Shown piece after piece: positions 1,382 through 55,292 of a stretch of DNA of 64,000 nucleotides. The stretch's first letter is position 1, and each line of letters starts with the position of its first letter. Both the position numbers and the translations under genes were made by a program. The stretch is from NCBI GenBank assembly GCA_947088865.1, contig CAMUHY010000011.1, forward strand, positions 44,268 through 108,267, written 5' to 3'. This DNA is from an uncultured Eubacterium sp. (GTDB lineage: Bacteria > Bacillota > Clostridia > Lachnospirales > Lachnospiraceae). The notes under the pieces were generated by a model. That model worked only from the letters and a program-made list of their open reading frames with translations, did not search any database and was not told the DNA's origin.

Positions 1382-3082
1382 TTAAGCCGTTACATTAAAT
1401 TTGGATACCAAATCAGCCATACAAGTTGCCTCTGCACTTAATTCTTGGCTTGTTGCAGAAGTTTCTTGTGCGGTGGCAGCATTGGATTGTACGATTTCAG
1501 AAATTCGATTGATACCTTCCGTAGCTTGATTCATAGCAACAGATTGGTCAGCAGAAATATCACTTAAATCTTTAGAAGCTGAAGCAATATTTTCTACACC
1601 ATCAACAACATTTTTTAATGATTCAGAAGTACGTTGCGTAACGATATTGCCATCGGTTACCTCATGGAGTACATCTTCAAGTAATGTCCTAGAATCGACA
1701 GCAGATTTTGCGCTCTGTTCTGCTAATGTACGAATTTGGTCAGCTACAACAGCAAATCCTTTTCCAGCTTCACCAGCTCTTGCTGCTTCAATAGAAGCAT
1801 TTAAGGAAAGTAGGTTGGTCTGGCTTGCAATATCTTCAATATCAGAAATAATATTTCCAATTTGTTGTGTGGATGCACTGATGCGTGACATCGATTCCAT
1901 TAAGGCAGTCATATCACCATTGCTTGCCTCTGCCAATTCTGAATATTTTTTTGCATTTAGATAAGCTTCTTTCAATTGTGAAGCAGTAGATTGAATGCCA
2001 TCTGAAAGAGTAGTAATTGTTGCCTGCATTTCTTCAACAGAAGCCGCTTGGTCTGTTGCTCCCTCAGCCAATACCTGAGCTGCTTCAGATAAGTTATCAG
2101 AACCTATGGATACTTGGGCAGCCGCTTGATGAATATTGGTAAGCGTATCTGTCATTTGTTTAATTAAGGTCTTAATAGAGGTAAGCATATGTTCAAATTT
2201 TCCTACATAGAGTTCTTCATGTTGAATTTGAACAACAAAATTTCCTTGTGCCATTTCATCTAATACATTATTTGTATCACTGATAATGTTTTGTAAATGT
2301 TCTGCCATATTAAGAACTTCTGTTATCATATCAGCAATCTCATCTTTGCTTTCTACGGTAGGAAATGGTGAATCAAAGTCCCCTTGTGCAAATGTCTTAA
2401 ACCGTTCTCCCAGTGATTTTAAAGGTTTTTCAATACCTCTTGCAATTTTTTTGGCTATTCGTGTAGATATAAGAATAGCTGTGATAATAGCGATTATTAT
2501 AAGAGCGATAAGGACCAATGCCAATATAGATAGCATATTGTTAGCAGAATCTCCTTTTTCTACATTAACATCCATTAAGCTAATCATTGCTTCATCTAAT
2601 GCGTTATATAAAGGTTCTACTTCATTTATCATTTTTTGCTGTGCCTGAAGACTTGATGAGGAATTAGCGGTAGTTCCCATCTTTATTACAGTTGCATCAA
2701 TTTCTTTATATGTTTTCCATGCAGCATCGATTTTGTCCATACAAGCATGTCCTTCCTCTGTTATCATGGTTGGACGAATTTTTTGCAGATAGTTTTCAAA
2801 TTCATTGACTGAGCTATCATGTTTAACAAGAACTTTATCAATCAATTCTTGACTGTCATATCCAATTATCGCACGTGTTGCACTCCGTATTTCTGCACTT
2901 GCATTCATCAATCGTCCGATATCTCCTTGTGGAAAGGCATAATTATCAAGCACTTTTTGATATTGATTTATCATAAAAAATAAAGCAATACCTACAATCG
3001 TGCAAACAGAACTAAAGATTACCACAATAATTGTAAAAGCAGTAACCAAGCGTTTTTTAATGCGCATTTCATTAAATTTCAT
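1382..3082 (-). CDS. Methyl-accepting chemotaxis protein (four-helix-bundle sensor, HAMP)
   Basis: Membrane chemoreceptor of 566 residues. Order of parts: a transmembrane segment near residues 14-36, an extracellular helical region of about 150 residues resembling a four-helix-bundle MCP sensor, a second transmembrane segment near 185-207, a HAMP linker, then a long cytoplasmic coiled coil with the signalling hairpin tip [17 protein letters not shown]. It should report ligand binding to the CheA/CheW kinase. It is transcribed alone, converging on groEL. The ATG is preceded by the recurring leader cassette (see repeat at 3083-3113), which supplies the TGAGGA ribosome-binding site. The ligand cannot be told from sequence. 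Confidence 0.95.
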
Positions 3083-3113
3083 TTTATCCTCATTTCTGCG
3101 CTGCTTTTTGTGC
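3083..3113 (-). repeat. Start-proximal leader cassette (family A) before MCP gene
   Basis: Read on the minus strand this is TTTTTGTGC-type sequence followed by AAAGCAGCGCAGAAATGAGG and then the ATG. The same cassette precedes at least eight other reading frames here (near 4736, 9423, 15376, 16841, 27000, 34985, 35394 and 41521). The 3' end contains the Shine-Dalgarno sequence. Confidence 0.7.
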
Positions 3114-3195
3114 TAAGAACAAATGTTCTTACGAATTTATGGCAAGCAGCGCGCAGACACAAATCTCGCTATTGAATTTATATACACTGGGTTCG

Positions 3196-3475: not shown

Positions 3476-4582
3476 TTAATTTGGTTGGTTGGTGTCTTGA
3501 TTAGTCTGCTTTTGCTGATTGGAATTATCAGGCGCAGCAGGCGATGCATTATCAACAGGATGATGAATCGGGTGGTTCATTGTATTGTTTATATGTTTGT
3601 TCATATGATTGTTTATATTATTTCCCATATTAGGATTTGGAGGTCCTTGTGTTCTTTTCGTATAATTTTGTGGATTTTTCTTCTTTTTGTTTTTGGTTAT
3701 TTTAAATATAACCAGTATAATAATAGCAATAATTACAATATAAGGAAGGAAGAATATAAATATAAACAATATGGTCTGGCAGATATATAAGAAATATTCC
3801 CAGCTTCTCTTTACGGTTTCTTGTAATTTTTGCAGGAAAGTCTTTTCAGAATAAGGCGTAGTATATTCTGTAACTTCATTTAATTCAATATTGACATAAG
3901 AGTAAGCCACATCATTATTCATCTTATTCATATTGGTTTTTAATTTTTTAATTTCGATTTCGATATTGGTTAATTCCTTTTCAATGCTAATAGCATGTTC
4001 ATTGTCTGTTATTGTGCTAAGCATTTTTATATAGCGGTCGCGTTTGGCTTCATAAATTTCAAGAGTGGTTTTGGCATCGCTATATTCTTGGCTAATATTT
4101 TCAGCGTTTGCAGTCTTAAAACGAAGCGTGCCGATGGAATCTAAGCCAGATACAAAGTTTTCATATTTACTGCTGGGAACTCTTACCGTTGCAGAATAGG
4201 TGTGCATCAGTGTTTTATCATTGTTTAGATAATGGCTTCTTGAACCGTTATCGTTATAATTTTCAGATTCGACAAAACCATTATACTCTTTTAATGTGCT
4301 TTTAAAATCCGATACAGCTTTTTGAAAGTCCATTACATCAATTTCCATATTGCAGGAATATACAAGCATTTCTTCGGATAATGTCGTATTTTCAGAATTA
4401 TTATTAAAAGTATTTTTGTCGTTTTCTATTTCAGACTTTGATATACTATCTTTTGAGCCTGATGATTCACTAGAAGTACCAGAGCTGCCTATATTATTTT
4501 TACCGCCTGAAGAAGTACCTCCGCAAGATACAAGGCATAATAAAAATAGAATGGCAACACATGCAATTATTTTTCTTTTCAT
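3476..4582 (-). CDS. DUF4349-type membrane lipoprotein
   Basis: Predicted lipoprotein of 368 residues: a hydrophobic N-terminus ends in the lipobox LVSC (Cys20), then comes a Ser/Gly/Asn-rich linker and a folded region (about residues 70-240) resembling DUF4349, with a coiled coil around TNIEIEIKKLKTNMNKMNND. A second strong transmembrane segment lies near residues 265-295. The cytoplasmic tail is rich in Asn, His and Pro. The gene appears monocistronic. Its ribosome-binding site, GGAATGGAGG, is the terminal part of the 170-bp repeat at 4589-4762. Function is unknown; the architecture suggests an envelope protein anchored at both ends. Confidence 0.85.
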   Translation of the reverse strand: MKRKIIACVAILFLLCLVSCGGTSSGGKNNIGSSGTSSESSGSKDSISKSEIENDKNTFNNNSENTTLSEEMLVYSCNMEIDVMDFQKAVSDFKSTLKEYNGFVESENYNDNGSRSHYLNNDKTLMHTYSATVRVPSSKYENFVSGLDSIGTLRFKTANAENISQEYSDAKTTLEIYEAKRDRYIKMLSTITDNEHAISIEKELTNIEIEIKKLKTNMNKMNNDVAYSYVNIELNEVTEYTTPYSEKTFLQKLQETVKRSWEYFLYICQTILFIFIFFLPYIVIIAIIILVIFKITKNKKKKNPQNYTKRTQGPPNPNMGNNINNHMNKHINNTMNHPIHHPVDNASPAAPDNSNQQKQTNQDTNQPN

Positions 4583-4727
4583 AATAAACCTCCATTCCGA
4601 AGCGTAGCGTAGGAATTGCGCAATAGAAATTCGCGGAGGCGATTTCTATTGTCGCATCAAGCCCTATTTGTGACGCTTCGGCACAAATAGGCGTGTGAAA
4701 AATAAGCGCATCAGCATTATTTTTCAC
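4500..4727 (-). other. Small reading frame carried by repeat copy 1, runs into lipoprotein gene
   Basis: Inside the 170-bp repeat a GTG codon at 4727-4725 follows GGAGG with a 6-nt spacing. It opens a 75-codon frame starting VKNNADALIFHT that overlaps the first 83 bp of the DUF4349 gene in another frame. The first ~47 codons are nearly the same as the frame in the second copy (41362-41514). Most differences between copies change the amino acid, while hairpin pairing is kept. It is therefore more likely a leader frame or by-product of RNA structure than a selected protein. Confidence 0.35.
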
Positions 4728-4762
4728 ACTAAACCTCCATTTCTGCATTGTTTTTTGTTAAA
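4589..4762 (-). repeat. 170-bp multi-hairpin leader repeat, copy 1
   Basis: Nearly identical to 41377-41549. Read on the minus strand it contains a family A cassette (4736-4760), then successive hairpins: GTGAAAAATAA with TTATTTTTCAC, CCTATTTGTG with CACAAATAGG, and a 13-bp ATAGAAAT-containing stem. It ends with GGAATGGAGG, the ribosome-binding site of the DUF4349 gene. The second hairpin pairs as CT/AG in the other copy where this one has CC/GG, a compensating change. Confidence 0.8.
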
Positions 4763-9300: not shown

Positions 9301-9422
9301 CATCAAAATCTTTGAATGAATGGGCTATCGCATTAAGCTTTAAGCTGCAAGATATGTATTCTTGTACCTTTTGTTTTGTGTGACAGCCTTGTTTTATATT
9401 ATAAAAATATATATGTCTATGC

Positions 9423-9448
9423 GCAAAAAGCAGCGCAGAAAAGAGGGA
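9423..9448 (+). repeat. Start-proximal leader cassette (family A) before argS
   Basis: GCAAAAAGCAGCGCAGAA followed by AAGAGGG and the argS ATG at 9452. It is the same cassette as at 3083-3113 and 16841-16866. The remaining bases from 9301 to 9422 show no other structure. Confidence 0.7.
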
Positions 9449-9451
9449 TTT

Positions 9452-11218
9452 ATGGATACCATTATTGAAAACATAAGTAATGTGCTTGGTCAAGCTTTTA
9501 CATTGTGTGGTTATGATGCAAAATATGCAAAGGTGACTCTTTCCAATAGACCTGATTTGTGTGAATATCAGTGTAATGGTGCTATGGCGGCGGCAAAAGT
9601 TTATAAAAAGGCACCGTTGACAATTGCTGATGAAGTTGTCAATCAGTTGAAAGAAGATGTGCTATTTGAGCAGATAGAAAGTGTAAAGCCAGGATTTATC
9701 AATATTTGCGTTTCGCCAGCATATCTTACAGAATTTCTTAATACAATGTCTGTATCGAAGCAATTTGGATATGTTCCTAAGGTGACAAATAAGACGGTTA
9801 TTGTAGATTATGGCGGAGCTAATGTTGCCAAACCGCTGCATATAGGGCATTTGCGTTCGGCAGTTATCGGCGAGAGTATCAAACGTATTCAAAGATATGC
9901 AGGTAATACCATAATAGGCGATGTACATTTAGGAGACTGGGGTCTTCAAATGGGGCTTATTATAGAAGAATTAAGAGACAAAAATCCAAATCTTTCTTAT
10001 TTTGATGAATTCTTTTTGGGAGAGTATCCATCCGAACCGCCTTTTACTATATCCGAGTTAGAACAAATATATCCCGTTGCCAGCAAAAAGTCCAAAGAAG
10101 ATGAGACATTTATGGAGAGAGCCCATCAGACAACATTGGCGTTACAGGGCGGCAATAAAGCATATACAGCTATTTGGAAACATATAATGAATATTTCCAA
10201 AGCAGATTTAAAGAAAAATTATGATGAGCTTCATGTATCGTTTGATTTGTGGAAGGGTGAGAGCGATTCTCAAGTCTATATTAAAGATATGCTTCAGCAA
10301 ATGAACGATAATGGTTTGACTTATGAAAGTCAAGGTGCTATGGTGATTGATATACAAGAGGAGACCGACAAAAAAGAACTTCCTCCATGTATTGTCCAAA
10401 AATCCGATGGTGCAGCGTTGTATGCTACATCAGACCTTGCCACAATGGTTCAAAGGGAATTGGATTATCACCCCGATGCTTACATTTATTTGGCAGATAA
10501 GAGGCAGGAACTTCATTTTACACAGGTGTTTCGTGTTGCAAAGAAAGCAGGAATTGTAAAGCAAAATACCGATATGACCTTTTTGGGGTTTGGAACAATG
10601 AACGGCAGTGATGGAAAACCTTTCAAAACACGTTCAGGCGGCGTGATGAGACTGGAATACCTTATAAAGGATATTCAAGAAGCTGTGTATAATAAAGTTA
10701 TAAACAATCGGGATATGTCGGATGAGGAAGCTTTAAATATTGCTAAAATAGTAGGATTGGCGGCATTAAAATATGGTGATTTGTCCAATCAGGCCTCAAA
10801 GGATTATGTATTTGATATAGACCGATTTATATCGTTTGAGGGGAATACAGGACCTTATATTTTGTATACGATTGTAAGAATCAAGTCTATATTGTCAAAA
10901 TATCAAGAAGAGGGAAATTCTATTTTATGTGATAAAGTGCAGGCCGCTTCATCCGATATTGAAAAAAATCTTCAGTTATCCCTTGCTCGATTTTTAGATA
11001 TGATAGATATGGCATATATGGAGAAGGCTCCACATAAAATATGCCAATATATTTATGAAGTGTCCAATATATTTAATCAATTTTATCATAGTACTAAAAT
11101 ACTTGGTGAAAAAGATAAGGAAAAAAAGCAAGGCTATATTGCGTTGATTTGTTTGACAAAAGATATTTTACTTACATGTATTGATTTATTAGGGTTTGAA
11201 TGTCCAGATAAAATGTAG
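9452..11218 (+). CDS. argS: Arginine--tRNA ligase
   Basis: Charges tRNA-Arg; class I synthetase of 588 residues. The N-terminal Add1 domain (about 1-110) is followed by the catalytic core with the HIGH motif HIGHLRSAV, the arginine-binding region VIVDYGGANVAKP and the ArgRS-type signature FKTRSGG in place of a canonical KMSKS. A helical anticodon-binding domain ends the protein (about 470-588). ATG at 9452 was chosen because AAGAGGG precedes it by about 5 nt; the frame is open further upstream but without a better site. The leader carries the family A cassette. Confidence 0.96.
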   Translation: MDTIIENISNVLGQAFTLCGYDAKYAKVTLSNRPDLCEYQCNGAMAAAKVYKKAPLTIADEVVNQLKEDVLFEQIESVKPGFINICVSPAYLTEFLNTMSVSKQFGYVPKVTNKTVIVDYGGANVAKPLHIGHLRSAVIGESIKRIQRYAGNTIIGDVHLGDWGLQMGLIIEELRDKNPNLSYFDEFFLGEYPSEPPFTISELEQIYPVASKKSKEDETFMERAHQTTLALQGGNKAYTAIWKHIMNISKADLKKNYDELHVSFDLWKGESDSQVYIKDMLQQMNDNGLTYESQGAMVIDIQEETDKKELPPCIVQKSDGAALYATSDLATMVQRELDYHPDAYIYLADKRQELHFTQVFRVAKKAGIVKQNTDMTFLGFGTMNGSDGKPFKTRSGGVMRLEYLIKDIQEAVYNKVINNRDMSDEEALNIAKIVGLAALKYGDLSNQASKDYVFDIDRFISFEGNTGPYILYTIVRIKSILSKYQEEGNSILCDKVQAASSDIEKNLQLSLARFLDMIDMAYMEKAPHKICQYIYEVSNIFNQFYHSTKILGEKDKEKKQGYIALICLTKDILLTCIDLLGFECPDKM

Positions 11219-11376
11219 TGTAAAAAATTTTAGCTTGAAACAGGAATTTATGCTGAAGCGTCATAAGTTCTGATTATTGCAGGAAATGTTACAAAATAGT
11301 AACAGTTTTGTTTAGCAGGCAGCAAATGGATTGTAAATATCCTTTGACTATAAAACGCTTCGGAATGGAAGGCAAC

Positions 11377-12390
11377 ATGAAATTAATATCGTTTACAATA
11401 CCATGTTATAATTCAGCAGCTTATATGGATAAATGTATTCAGTCTGTATTGGCAGGCGGCAAAGATGTTGAGGTAATTATTGTTGATGATGGTTCTACGA
11501 AAGATGACACAGCAAGGATAGCAGACAATTATTCAAAAAAGTATCCCGATATTGTAAAAGTGATACATCAAGAAAATGGCGGGCATGGAGAGGCTGTCAA
11601 CACGGGGCTTGCACATGCAACAGGAAAGTTTTTTAAAGTTGTTGACAGTGATGATTGGGTTGATTTGAAAAGTTATAAAAAGATTTTATCGGTTCTTAAA
11701 AGTTTTGAAGATGGAGAAGAACCCGATATGCTGATTGCAAATTATGTATATAATAAAGTTGGTGTCAGCCGAAAAAAAGTTATTCATTATGACAATGTCT
11801 TTCCTGTGGAAAAAATGTTTGGCTGGAATGAAGTGGGAAATTTTAAAATTGACCAGTATATTCTTATGCACTCTGCTATTTATAGAACGCAGATACTGAG
11901 GGAGTGTTCTTTACAACTGCCAAAGCATACGTTTTATGTGGATAATATATTTGTCTTTGAGCCATTGCCATTTGTTAAAAAAATGTATTATGTAAATACA
12001 AATTTTTATAGGTATTTTATTGGAAGAGCAGACCAATCCGTAAACGAAGATATTATGATATCAAGAATTGACCAACAAATTGATGTTACCAAACGAATGA
12101 TTAATTTTTATCTTGAAAGCCACATAGAAAATGTAAAATGTGATTTGTATATGGTTCAATATTTAAGAATTATGATGGAGGTATCGTCAATATTTTTGAT
12201 AATATCAGGAACAAAAGAAAATTTAGCAAAAAAGAAAGAACTTTGGAATTACGCAAAAAAAGATAAAAAACTATACAGAAGATTGCGATACAGTCTGCTT
12301 GGATTTTCCGTTAATTTTCCAGGAAAAATCGGCAGAATGATATCAAAAAATGGTTATAAGGTAATGAATAAATTGATAGGATTTAACTAA
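11377..12390 (+). CDS. Family 2 glycosyltransferase
   Basis: A GT-A fold glycosyltransferase of 337 residues, cytoplasmic and presumably acting on an envelope polysaccharide or glycolipid. The N-terminal nucleotide-sugar domain shows SFTIPCYNSAAYMDKCI, VEVIIVDDGST and the metal-binding VVDSDDWVD. The C-terminal third is helical and basic without a clear membrane span. The ATG at 11377 sits after GGAATGGAAGG. The upstream bases 11356-11371 (GCTTCGGAATGGA) match the end of the 170-bp repeat, possibly a remnant. Substrate unknown. The gene stands alone and ends at a bidirectional terminator. Confidence 0.88.
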   Translation: MKLISFTIPCYNSAAYMDKCIQSVLAGGKDVEVIIVDDGSTKDDTARIADNYSKKYPDIVKVIHQENGGHGEAVNTGLAHATGKFFKVVDSDDWVDLKSYKKILSVLKSFEDGEEPDMLIANYVYNKVGVSRKKVIHYDNVFPVEKMFGWNEVGNFKIDQYILMHSAIYRTQILRECSLQLPKHTFYVDNIFVFEPLPFVKKMYYVNTNFYRYFIGRADQSVNEDIMISRIDQQIDVTKRMINFYLESHIENVKCDLYMVQYLRIMMEVSSIFLIISGTKENLAKKKELWNYAKKDKKLYRRLRYSLLGFSVNFPGKIGRMISKNGYKVMNKLIGFN

Positions 12391-15375: not shown

Positions 15376-15399
15376 AAAAGGCAGTGCAGAAATGAGGAC
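15376..15399 (+). repeat. Start-proximal leader cassette (family A) before pyrC
   Basis: AAAAGGCAGTGCAGAAATGAGGA directly before the pyrC ATG, filling nearly all of the 29-bp gap after the GGDEF-EAL gene. A short form of the cassette. Confidence 0.65.
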
Positions 15400-16724: not shown

Positions 16725-16840
16725 TGTACAATTTTTGGATAATGGTAAAAGATATAAGTTGCTATTGAATGAGGTTATAAGCAAGCTGTGTCTACGCGTT
16801 GCTTGACACAAAGTTGCAAAAATAAAATTTTGTTTTTTGT

Positions 16841-16866
16841 GCAAAAAAGCAGCGCAGAAATGAGGA
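16841..16866 (+). repeat. Start-proximal leader cassette (family A) before pyrF
   Basis: GTGCAAAAAAGCAGCGCAGAA then ATGAGGA before the pyrF ATG. This is the longest match to the consensus. Upstream, 16780-16805 has a CAAGC/GCTTG inverted repeat that may be a degenerate family B hairpin. Confidence 0.7.
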
Positions 16867-16871
16867 TTTTT

Positions 16872-17798
16872 ATGATAAACAAGTTAATTGATGGTATTAA
16901 AAAGAAAAATGCGCCTATTGTTGTGGGTTTAGACCCTATGATGAAGTTTATTCCCGCACCTGTAAAAGATGCTGCATTTAAGGAATATGGCGAGACGTTA
17001 GAGGGGGCAGCAGAGGCAATATGGCAGTTTAACAGACAAATTATAGACCATATATATGATATTATTCCGGCAGTAAAGCCACAGGTGGCAATGTATGAAC
17101 AGTTTGGTGTTCCAGGACTTACAGCATTTAAAAAGACGGTTGATTATTGCCATGAAAAAGGATTGATTGTGATAGGCGACGTCAAGCGAGGGGATATCGG
17201 TTCTACATCAGAGGCTTATGCGGTTGCCCATTTAGGTAAAGTTTTGGTAGGCAATGCTTATATAAGCGCATTTGATGAAGATTTTGCAACGGTGAATCCA
17301 TATTTGGGAACGGATGGAATAAAGCCATTTTTAGATGTATGCACACAGGAGAAAAAAGGTATTTTTATTCTTGTCAAAACGTCCAATCCATCCAGCGGAG
17401 AATTTCAAGACCAGCTTGTTGATGGAAAACCATTGTATGAGTTGGTTGGAAAGAAAGTTGACGAATGGGCAAGCAGGTGTATGGGTGATACGTATAGTTA
17501 TGTTGGCGCTGTTGTCGGCGCAACATATCCAGAGATGGGGAAAGTATTAAGAAAAGTGATGCCAAAGTCTTTTATATTGGTGCCAGGTTATGGCGCGCAG
17601 GGCGGAAAAGCGAAAGATTTAGTGCCATATTTTAATGATGATGGGTTAGGCGCTATTGTAAATAGTTCAAGAGGCATTATTGCAGCCTACGCGAAAGAGG
17701 AATATGCAGCGTTTGGCGAGAGTCGTTTTGCTGAGGCTTCAAGACAGGCTACAATGGATATGATTGAGGACATTAATCAAGCGTTACAAAATAAATAA
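16872..17798 (+). CDS. pyrF: Orotidine-5'-phosphate decarboxylase (type 2)
   Basis: Decarboxylates OMP to UMP, the last step of the pathway. At 308 residues it belongs to the long (type 2) branch rather than the ~240-residue B. subtilis type. The signature Asp-x-Lys-x-x-Asp is seen in VIGDVKRGDIGSTSEAYA; substrate loops include VVGLDPMMK at the N-terminus and VKTSNPSSGEFQ. ATG at 16872 has TGAGGA 6 nt upstream in the family A cassette; in-frame codons further upstream run through repeat sequence and are not supported. Confidence 0.96.
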   Translation: MINKLIDGIKKKNAPIVVGLDPMMKFIPAPVKDAAFKEYGETLEGAAEAIWQFNRQIIDHIYDIIPAVKPQVAMYEQFGVPGLTAFKKTVDYCHEKGLIVIGDVKRGDIGSTSEAYAVAHLGKVLVGNAYISAFDEDFATVNPYLGTDGIKPFLDVCTQEKKGIFILVKTSNPSSGEFQDQLVDGKPLYELVGKKVDEWASRCMGDTYSYVGAVVGATYPEMGKVLRKVMPKSFILVPGYGAQGGKAKDLVPYFNDDGLGAIVNSSRGIIAAYAKEEYAAFGESRFAEASRQATMDMIEDINQALQNK

Positions 17799-26999: not shown

Positions 27000-27020
27000 A
27001 AAAGCGGCACAGAAATGAGG
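27000..27020 (+). repeat. Start-proximal leader cassette (family A) before purD
   Basis: AAAAGCGGCACAGAAATGAGG directly before the purD ATG at 27025. A shortened, diverged form of the cassette inside an operon. Confidence 0.55.
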
Positions 27021-34984: not shown

Positions 34985-35010
34985 TGCAAAAGCAGTGCAA
35001 AAATGGAGGA
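34985..35010 (+). repeat. Start-proximal leader cassette (family A) before zinc-ribbon gene
   Basis: GTGCAAAAGCAGTGCAAAAATGGAGG before the ATG at 35015. Confidence 0.65.
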
Positions 35011-36901: not shown

Positions 36902-36942
36902 CCCTCCCCATTTCAATGCTGCAAACGCATAAATGGGGTGGG
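36902..36942. repeat. Hairpin with conserved inner segment, copy 1
   Basis: Outer stem CCCTCCCCATTT with AAATGGGGTGGG, inner CAATGCTGCAAACGCAT, in which ATGC pairs with GCAT. The copy at 55250-55292 has the same inner segment with one change, but a different, fully paired outer stem. It lies between the hydrogenase and Nudix genes and lacks a T-run. Confidence 0.7.
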
Positions 36943-40463: not shown

Positions 40464-41369
40464 TTACACTTCGTTTATTAGTGTTTCGTATTTTGGCATA
40501 AATCCAATGCCAGTAGTGTATGCGCCTGTATGACAGCCTGTAATAATACTGACACGACCGTCAAAACGTTCCCTGCTCTCAACACATTTTATATTTAGGG
40601 CTTCCTCAATATTTTTTCTTAATTCATCGCGTTCTTCATAAAGGTTTGCTGAACCTGTACTAAAATCATATGTTTGAGGGTCGATATGATTGTTTACAAA
40701 ATGTTTTTTTACATTTTCAAATACAGAATTGATGGATTTTTTTCTTGTTCGGCTTACACCTGCTAAATTAATCTCACCGTTTTTAAGGAAAATCGTTGGA
40801 CGAATACTAAGTACACCTGTAATAAGGGTGGCAAGTTTTCCAATTCGTCCGCCTTTTTTTAAGTAATCGAGATTTTCAATAGTAAATATAACCGTTCCTA
40901 TACTGGTCATTTTTCTAAGAATTTTAACGGCTGTATCAAAGTCAATATTATCACGATTCATGCGGATAGCTTCATAGACAAGCAGTCCTTGTGCAGCAGA
41001 ATTTAATTGTGAATTGATAACTTCTATTTTTGCATCGGGATATTTCTCTTTTAATTGTTCGGCAGCGATTCGTGCAGAATTATAAGAACCGCTAAGTACT
41101 GTGGAAATCGTCATAGCAACTACGGGAATATTTTTTTCTACATAAGGTAAAAAAGTATCTGTATAATCTTGAACACTAGGAAGAGAAGTTTTTGGATAAA
41201 TTTTATTGTTTATAATTTTTTGGTAAAAATCTTCCACAGAAAGCTCATATAAATCTTTATAATAAGTTTTTTCGTCAAATGTAACATAAAAAGGAACTAA
41301 TGTAACATCAACGGAATTAGCATAATCAAGGGTGTAATCACATGCCGTATCGCTTATAATTTTAAACAT
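40464..41369 (-). CDS. DegV-family fatty-acid-binding protein
   Basis: A 301-residue DegV protein, which binds fatty acids (FakB-like) and presents them to the kinase FakA. Typical signatures are ISDTACDYT, the YPKTSLPSVQDY lipid-binding loop, STVLSGSYNSA and the GGRIGK segment. C-terminal GCHTGAYTTGIGF is also conserved. The ATG at 41369 uses GGAATGGAGG at the end of the 170-bp repeat, and the small frame in that repeat ends 8 nt inside this gene. fakA is not in the window. Confidence 0.93.
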   Translation of the reverse strand: MFKIISDTACDYTLDYANSVDVTLVPFYVTFDEKTYYKDLYELSVEDFYQKIINNKIYPKTSLPSVQDYTDTFLPYVEKNIPVVAMTISTVLSGSYNSARIAAEQLKEKYPDAKIEVINSQLNSAAQGLLVYEAIRMNRDNIDFDTAVKILRKMTSIGTVIFTIENLDYLKKGGRIGKLATLITGVLSIRPTIFLKNGEINLAGVSRTRKKSINSVFENVKKHFVNNHIDPQTYDFSTGSANLYEERDELRKNIEEALNIKCVESRERFDGRVSIITGCHTGAYTTGIGFMPKYETLINEV

Positions 41370-41514
41370 AATAATCCTCCATTCCGAAGCTTAGCGTAGG
41401 AATTGCGCAATAGAAATTCGCGAAGGCGATTTCTATTGTCGCATCAAGCCTTATTTGTGACGTTTCGGCACAAATAAGTGTGTGAAAAATAAGTGCATCA
41501 GCATTATTTTTCAT
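41362..41514 (-). other. 50-codon reading frame carried by repeat copy 2, ends inside degV start
   Basis: ATG at 41514-41512 follows TGGAG with good spacing and encodes a 50-residue frame starting MKNNADALIFHT and ending FGMEDYYV. The stop lies 8 nt inside the DegV gene, a layout suited to translational coupling. The first 47 codons match the frame in copy 1. Amino-acid changes between the two are frequent, so selection seems to act on the stem-loops rather than on the peptide. Confidence 0.35.
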
Positions 41515-41549
41515 AATAATCTCCATTTCTGCGCTGCTTTTTTGTTAAA
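41377..41549 (-). repeat. 170-bp multi-hairpin leader repeat, copy 2
   Basis: Same element as 4589-4762, with about nine differences over the ~140-bp core. On the minus strand: family A cassette (41521-41546), hairpin GAAAAATAA/TTATTTTTC, hairpin CTTATTTGTG/CACAAATAAG, the ATAGAAAT stem, then GGAATGGAGG used by degV. The rest of the 407-bp gap up to hypB (41550-41776) is AT-rich and probably holds the hypB promoter; nothing else was recognised. Confidence 0.8.
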
Positions 41550-55249: not shown

Positions 55250-55292
55250 AAGTCCCCCACTTCAATGCTGCAAAGGCATAAGTGGGGGACTT
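55250..55292. repeat. Hairpin with conserved inner segment, copy 2
   Basis: A perfect 13-bp outer stem AAGTCCCCCACTT / AAGTGGGGGACTT around CAATGCTGCAAAGGCAT, in which ATGC pairs with GCAT. The inner segment is the same as at 36914-36930 but for one base, although the outer stems differ at several paired positions. It lies between convergent engB and DUF4364 genes. Confidence 0.75.

Follow-up and report, generated by a model that had tools for sequence, protein, structure and literature searches.

Almost the same folded leader precedes two unrelated genes in a 64,000-nucleotide stretch of DNA from an uncultured Eubacterium sp. of the Lachnospiraceae (the window, to which all coordinates refer). 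What kind of sequence is this, and how did it come to lie there? A first-pass annotation described a 170-bp repeat in two copies, at 4589–4762 and 41377–41549, and proposed that selection acts on its hairpins, either as RNA or as DNA bound by a transposase. Inspection of the sequence places both copies at these coordinates, directly before start codons on the minus strand, namely those of a DUF4349 lipoprotein gene and of degV (Pfam). They are indeed nearly identical, with 92% identity over 174 nt by BLAST and 90% over 166 nt without gaps (family D1).

The repeated unit and its borders

A repeat is thus present, but its true unit is shorter than 170 bp; it comprises approximately 4595–4729, plus flanking copies of the Shine–Dalgarno (SD) sequence. 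This unit is referred to as element A. The adjoining 4740–4762 looks like the tail end of another repeat that is related to it, element B (family D3, with 75% identity over this part). The features of element A in the window are as follows.

4595–4729, minus strand: copy 1, the repeated unit, in gene sense GTGTGAAAAAT...CGCTTCGGAA (sequence, BLAST, covariance model)
4585–4594, minus strand: 3′ SD copy of copy 1, before the DUF4349 gene, sense TGGAGGTTTA, a 10-mer common with the 5′ copy
4730–4739, minus strand: 5′ SD copy of copy 1, sense TGGAGGTTTA
3476–4582, minus strand: gene downstream of copy 1, DUF4349 lipoprotein (PF14257, 9.4e-44)
4693–4729, minus strand: hairpin A, GTGTGAAAAAT...ATTTTTCACAC; helix 1, changes on both sides in 10 of 13 pairs
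4663–4691, minus strand: hairpin B, CCTATTTGTG...CACAAATAGG, loop 4673–4681; helix 2, changes on both sides in 9 of 10 pairs
4618–4655, minus strand: hairpin C; helix 3, changes on both sides in 9 of 11 pairs
4597–4605, minus strand: 3′ segment pairing with the hairpin B loop, sense ACGCTTCGG
41382–41516, minus strand: copy 2, with the long-range pairing partly broken (sequence, BLAST, covariance model)
41370–41381, minus strand: 3′ SD copy of copy 2, before degV, sense TGGAGGATTATT
41512–41525, minus strand: 5′ SD copy of copy 2, sense TGGAGATTATTATG
40464–41369, minus strand: gene downstream of copy 2, DegV (PF02645, 5.4e-61)
11217–11371, plus strand: third copy, decayed, before the ATG at 11377 (model E 4.4e-8)

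In gene sense, copy 1 begins GTGTGAAAAAT and ends CGGAA. The 5′ SD copy of copy 2 overlaps the first bases of that element and repeats the gene start including its ATG, with one G fewer than the 3′ copy. A covariance model (R1) of hairpins A, B and C, built from 22 sequences with copy 1 among them, recovers all three window copies; its matches to copies 1 and 2 span 4589–4730 (127.7 bits) and 41376–41517 (109.6 bits). As a chance control, the 25-mer at the 5′ end, with up to three mismatches, finds copy 1 only, with 0.00 matches expected (100 shuffles). Element A is mostly 129–145 bp long, and up to 172 bp in its own genome.

The SD sequences recur on both sides of the element throughout the family. 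The 13 nt preceding the left end contain an SD core (GGAG, GAGG or GGGG) in 126 of 154 copies, compared with 14 of 154 windows taken 32–45 nt upstream, and the first 13 nt past the right end contain one in 146 of 154. In 144 of 154, an open frame comes next that spans 40 codons or more, or that is still open where the stretch ends. Within genomes, the SD variants on the left and right also match each other. The mean shared string is 6.32 nt against 5.39 for permuted partners (sd 0.14; 0 of 1000 as high; n = 96) in a test that counted three bases of the element in; leaving out those bases gives 5.71 against 4.89, the largest of 1000 permuted values being 5.20 (128 of the 154 copies, from genomes with at least four). 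Shared strings of at least 8 nt account for 29.7%, against 10.1% when permuted, and unusual variants can be found on both sides of one and the same copy (GAGGCATA in L173, AGAGGGTAG in L179, GGAGAGGTA in L148 and CGGAGAATA in L166). The flanks thus carry a target-site duplication without a fixed length, of about 6–11 nt; half of the copies (64 of 128) share 5 nt or fewer and are without matching flanks.

Element B is 94 nt long. By inspection of 14 nearly uniform copies from the window's own genome, its left hairpin is as in element A, it has SDs on both sides, and the loop of a further hairpin, CTGCGC, matches GCGCAG before its SD. Some copies lie directly behind the end of element A (L301, L302), and an element B tail lies directly upstream of copy 2; this is read as nesting by repeated insertion into SDs. 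The tail has seven matches in the window with up to two mismatches, one of them at 34992, against 1.17 expected.

41524–41537, minus strand: element B tail directly upstream of copy 2, GCAGCGCAGAAATG
3086–3169, minus strand: copy resembling element B but with no recognisable 5′ hairpin, before the gene at 1382–3082 on the minus strand (by inspection)
16782–16866, plus strand: copy resembling element B but with no recognisable 5′ hairpin, before the ATG at 16872 (by inspection)
9421–9446, plus strand: element B tail, before the ATG at 9452

At 15381–15394 and 27004–27017, further element B tails (GCAGCGCAGAAATG or a near match), each followed by an SD and a start codon, stand before window genes. 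An unrelated second repeat, at 36906–36938 and 55255–55287, forms the hairpin CCCCAYTTCAATGCTGCAAASGCATAARTGGGG, and both of its arms have changed together between copies.

Hairpins, covariation and a long-range pairing

The two window copies fold better than all of 200 dinucleotide shuffles (z of −5.87 and −4.50), and the compensating base change that the first-pass annotation had quoted between them, affecting both arms of a hairpin, is correct in the sequence. In the alignment of 22 copies, 96.5% of cells are paired, compared with 38–51% in slid versions, and 14 of 34 pairs have changed on both sides. For 107 matches fitted to the model, an alignment that leans towards the covariance model, 97.4% of cells are paired (slid versions 38–58%) and 28 of 34 pairs show changes on both sides; such changes occupy 466 cells, against 136 in shuffles. 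Many copies, diverse genes and covariation together support selection on the hairpins. The stems alone leave RNA versus DNA undecided, because G-U and A-C cells are about equally common (40 and 51) and show no bias towards the sense strand. In four copies from the window's own genome (G000; L007, L009, L011 and L012), hairpins A and B are separated by an optional stretch of 12–16 nt that contains the small palindrome AACAAACCAGTTTGTTA.

A further pairing lies outside the hairpin helices, in which the hairpin B loop complements the nucleotides just before the 3′ SD. Loop and 3′ segment differ together between copies, as in CCGGAGCGT with ACGCTCCGG, CCGAAGCGT with ACGCTTCGG, CCGCAGGCG with CGTCTGCGG and CCGCAGGCA with TGCCTGCGG. 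A collection of 130 copies was drawn from 177 HMM hits by dropping duplicates and those covering less than 85% of the model; over the 115 of these that were used, 89% of the nine loop positions are paired, compared with 69% when partners are permuted (largest of 2000, 76%). Seventeen of the 115 pair at fewer than seven positions. Nine of these belong by inspection to subfamilies with a shifted loop (G195, G231, G226, G017, G086), four reflect a search error at copies with the inserted palindrome, and the rest look decayed. The best contiguous helix has a mean length of 8.6 bp, as against 5.4 bp with partners swapped and 4.2 bp with loop letters shuffled; it reaches at least 6 bp in 129 of 134 copies (out of 157 unique elements), window copy 2 being one of the five below this. 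Here G-U cells outnumber A-C cells by 64 to 9, counted in selected rows with at least seven of nine pairs, and this excess points to sense-strand RNA.

Such an RNA could in principle control access to the SD. Predictions for 98 of the 130 copies give no consistent effect of the long-range pairing, mean SD accessibility being 0.36 when free and 0.29 with the pairing held; holding it raised accessibility in 23 of the 98 copies and lowered it in 40. A regulatory switch that works by masking the SD is set aside for this lack of a consistent folding prediction. Nor does the element correspond to a known RNA family above the Rfam cut-offs: the window has no match over the gathering cut-off, and seven loci have none over it at E ≤ 5, the one match overlapping the element being TD-2 with 26.9 bits against the 48.7 required.

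Spread, targets and empty sites

The two copies of the first-pass annotation are real but are not the total; besides the third copy in the window, there are many more in the genome. Searches of the genome and its relatives gave, for the own genome, 37 BLAST pieces (174-nt query) and 51 covariance-model hits at E ≤ 0.01, many of the weaker, 94-nt hits being element B. The outcome that would have spoken for a simple duplication, only two copies and no covariation elsewhere, is not what was found. Among 61 genomes (the own genome and 60 relatives), at least 18, the own included, have BLAST matches, with up to 13 candidates scored per genome; G043 is the sole positive among the 24 genomes of other families in this set. 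Model hits at E ≤ 0.001 occur in at least 36 of 200 sampled genomes of the family, again including the own (up to 16 candidates scored). In a phylum scan with strict filters one of 398 genomes was positive, the own; absence across the phylum is weak evidence here, because only the best eight candidates per genome were scored. Copy numbers can be high: G138, a 2.4-Mb genome, has 49 BLAST matches to one of its own copies, and G226 has 43. A degenerate 52-base pattern gave exact matches at ten loci in genome contigs, in records named Eubacteriales, Lachnoclostridium or Lachnospiraceae.

The genes downstream are unrelated, and the common pathway that marks riboswitch targets was not found among them. 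Of ten downstream proteins tested by Pfam, nine have a family, all different, namely DUF4349, DegV, ribose/galactose isomerase, UPF0004, ParB, GatC, tRNA pseudouridine synthase, glutamine synthetase and phosphomethylpyrimidine kinase; the tenth (L123) has none. Judged from the sequence, further targets presumably include MnmG, biotin carboxylase, glycyl-tRNA synthetase and a MoxR-like ATPase. Nine of 24 examined copies (L005, L012, L036, L048, L052, L057, L123, L128, L130) begin 2–24 nt past an open frame of at least 50 codons on the same strand; the frame downstream of L005 has only 11 codons.

Sister species allow filled and empty sites to be compared. Sixteen orthologous loci of G006 and G020, whose downstream flanks are 90–99.5% identical, comprise nine clean filled/empty pairs, five loci occupied in both species (of which one carries an internal deletion in G006 and another has a changed 5′ part), one with differing subfamilies and one ambiguous case (L228). 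Two more loci are filled in both (L241/L231, L242/L230), and 6 of 23 query segments had no orthologue in the sister genome (L227, L240, L243, L245, L248, L259). In seven of the nine clean pairs (L235, L229, L232, L246, L251, L239, L247), a string of 6 nt or more that contains the SD is common to the left flank, the right flank and the empty site. An example is L281/L246, where the empty site reads AAGATTGGAGGATTTTTTATG and the filled one AAGATTGGAGGAT, element, GATTGGAGGATTTTTTATG. The base that immediately precedes the right-hand SD is the target's own in L246 and L251, so that the duplication reaches about 9–11 nt there. In L247, the right SD ATGAGGATT shares 6 nt with the empty site GAAAGGATT. 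The remaining two clean pairs depart from this pattern; the left flank differs in L250, and the flanks of L244 match each other and not the SD of the sister. The empty sites of L229 and L232 themselves end like the 3′ end of the element, so an older insertion may lie there.

At one locus, the SD of one orthologous gene holds different subfamilies in the two species, L249 in G006 and L289 in G020, which suggests hot spots or replacement. In a further pair of genomes, G011/G016, one locus is ambiguous (L260/L268) and one filled in both (L258/L261).

The junction of mnmE and mnmG was followed through 20 genomes of the genus. Element A is present in G000 and G020 and an element B-like copy in G018; by inspection, neither was seen in the other 17, G006 included. 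The empty site of G006 reads TAG-AAAAATGGAGACTAAATTG; in G020, TAG-TAAGCTTGTGAAGGAGACT stands before the element and ATGGAGACTAAATTG after it. This pair is not base-perfect, since the two genomes have different bases from the mnmE stop up to the SD. The copy in G018 (L215) directly adjoins the mnmE stop, over 100 nt ahead of mnmG, and is followed by an SD and ATG of its own with a two-codon frame.

Nature of the element

By the presence/absence evidence, the element A family is mobile; it occupies SDs and leaves an SD on both sides. The best explanation, and a very probable one, is a short, non-autonomous mobile element that inserts into SDs. In this mechanism, the element would enter the SD of a gene in one orientation, the left SD would remain behind the upstream gene or leader, and the right SD would serve the target gene, so that the gene can still be translated after insertion. 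The element would be moved by an enzyme acting in trans, and a staggered cut, or an exchange of strands, inside the SD would produce its second copy. Once transcribed, the element would fold hairpins A, B and C, with the loop of B pairing just upstream of the 3′ SD, and this fold may serve either the element or the leader that it has created. At some sites, precise loss by recombination between the SD repeats may have occurred, which is compatible with presence/absence taken alone.

Candidate enzymes were sought in 28 genomes, 14 carriers and 14 without element hits. RVT_1 (PF00078) was detected in eight carriers and nine non-carriers, and not in the carriers G006, G020, G013, G034, G138 or G104, which are 99–100% complete except for G020 (85%). 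Y1_Tnp (PF01797) was found in six carriers and seven non-carriers, and not in the carriers G032, G138, G226, G202, G240, G104, G142 and G174. The IS110 DEDD transposase (PF01548) was found in nine carriers and six non-carriers, and not in G138, G226, G105, G142 or G020. G138, 99% complete and with its 49 matches, shows none of the three. None of these enzymes can be a universal mobiliser, each being undetected in several carriers, unless it lies in missing sequence or outside the models; a transposase common to all 14 carriers was not found among them. Among the G138 matches listed (40 of 100 candidates scored), no two element ends lay on one strand at a distance of kilobases, and none of the matches represented a longer, autonomous form carrying a gene inside.

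These results bear directly on two other modes of mobility. A group II-intron-like or other retroelement, copied via RNA and primed at the SD by target-primed reverse transcription, would fit the lack of inverted termini, the variable duplication, the RNA-level pairing, the target-like 3′ end and the copies that lack a 5′ part. It is nevertheless decidedly improbable, given the six carriers in which RVT_1 was not found and three 5′-incomplete copies (L016, L018, L234) that have no SD at their left border. A single-strand element of the IS200/IS605 or REP type, mobilised by a Y1 transposase, would likewise account for hairpins near the ends, termini without inversion and a fixed orientation to a short target motif. 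IS200/IS605 elements are not known to duplicate their target, yet in L246 and L251 it is the target sequence that the right SD follows; with Y1_Tnp also not found in eight of 14 carriers, this reading is hardly credible.

Two further readings place the emphasis on the host. The copies could be a cis-regulatory RNA, a riboswitch- or attenuator-like leader kept by hosts and spread by selection. The strong covariation, a loop-to-3′ pairing that adjoins the SD and the G-U excess expected of sense RNA would all suit it, yet the nine target families share no pathway, copies differ between sister species as close as G006 and G020, SD accessibility shows no consistent predicted effect and the window has no Rfam match over the gathering scores, which leaves it quite unlikely. 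Alternatively, the left SD could drive a peptide of 40–50 codons whose end lies close to the gene start, which would couple the two translationally; this small upstream cistron, compatible with the reading of an SD-targeting mobile element rather than exclusive of it, is unlikely. GTG or ATG stands at nucleotides 4–6 of the extracted element in 109 of 130 copies, and its frame stays open across the whole element in 59 of the 130 (other frames, 3 and 9; only +2 is a fair control, because +1 is closed by a TGA overlapping the start). In 15 of these 59 frames the stop ends at +4 relative to the start codon, in six it ends at −1, and 17 run through the stretch read without a stop. Three of ten genomes show an excess of third-position differences, G202 (73/47/120), G032 (6/6/11) and G195 (31/25/57; 0 of 5 open); against this, the excess is absent in the other seven, some subfamilies are frameshifted relative to each other, and none of 21 copies in G034, G240 and G195 is open. 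Five element peptides matched no Pfam or NCBIfam family over the cut-off. A conserved peptide is thus not supported overall, with seven of ten genomes lacking the excess and no family match; the frame is possibly a by-product that may help coupling.

Among known systems, element A comes closest to repeats of the bcr1 or BOX type. No repeat that targets the SD was found in the open-licence PMC literature searched (titles and abstract openings). REP and IS200/IS605 elements are intergenic, contain hairpins and occur in many copies, as does element A, from which they differ in the SD on both sides and in the eight carriers without a Y1 match. The short interspersed repeats of Bacillus cereus are described as 100–400 bp long, with bcr1 restricted to the group, present in up to 130 copies and showing mobile features tied to a repeated short motif, TTTAT (PMC6542083); bcr1–bcr3 are MITE-like and often lie in UTRs or operon junctions, and the secondary structure of bcr10 and bcr18 is conserved (PMC3446304). 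Compared by description, element A is likewise a short repeat that folds, has mobile features and is bordered by a recurring motif. Its border motif is the SD rather than TTTAT, and its covarying loop-to-end pairing is absent from the bcr descriptions cited here. BOX and RUP of Streptococcus pneumoniae are portrayed as small, tightly folded, probably parasitic and inserted into one another; they are co-transcribed with genes and can create ORFs (PMC3049150). They have terminal inverted repeats (PMC3049150), whereas none were seen in element A by inspection of 40 aligned copies; its left end, AGTGTGAAAAAT, is unrelated to the reverse complement of its right end (TTCCGGAGCGT, TTCCGAAGCGT or TTCCGCAGACG). 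Insertion into SDs, in turn, does not appear in the cited description of BOX and RUP. MITEs, defined as short, non-autonomous, folded elements with a target-site duplication at their flanks (PMC3049150), share all of these properties with element A. Unlike them, it lacks inverted termini, and no parental insertion sequence was seen among the matches listed.

The transcript may even guide its own mobility, the hairpin B loop recognising the element's own 3′ end by RNA pairing while a putative enzyme homes this SD-like end into translation start sites. This extension is speculative and itself doubtful; if it held, element A would be an RNA-directed mobile element that targets the ribosome-binding site. 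On the very probable reading of an SD-targeting mobile element, in which the SD is both target and duplicated, insertion ahead of essential genes would be possible without removal of the start signal, which would explain dozens of copies before housekeeping genes. Element A offers a defined long-range RNA pairing and a putative integration enzyme to look for, and an element of this kind would rewire 5′ leaders across many genera of the Lachnospiraceae.
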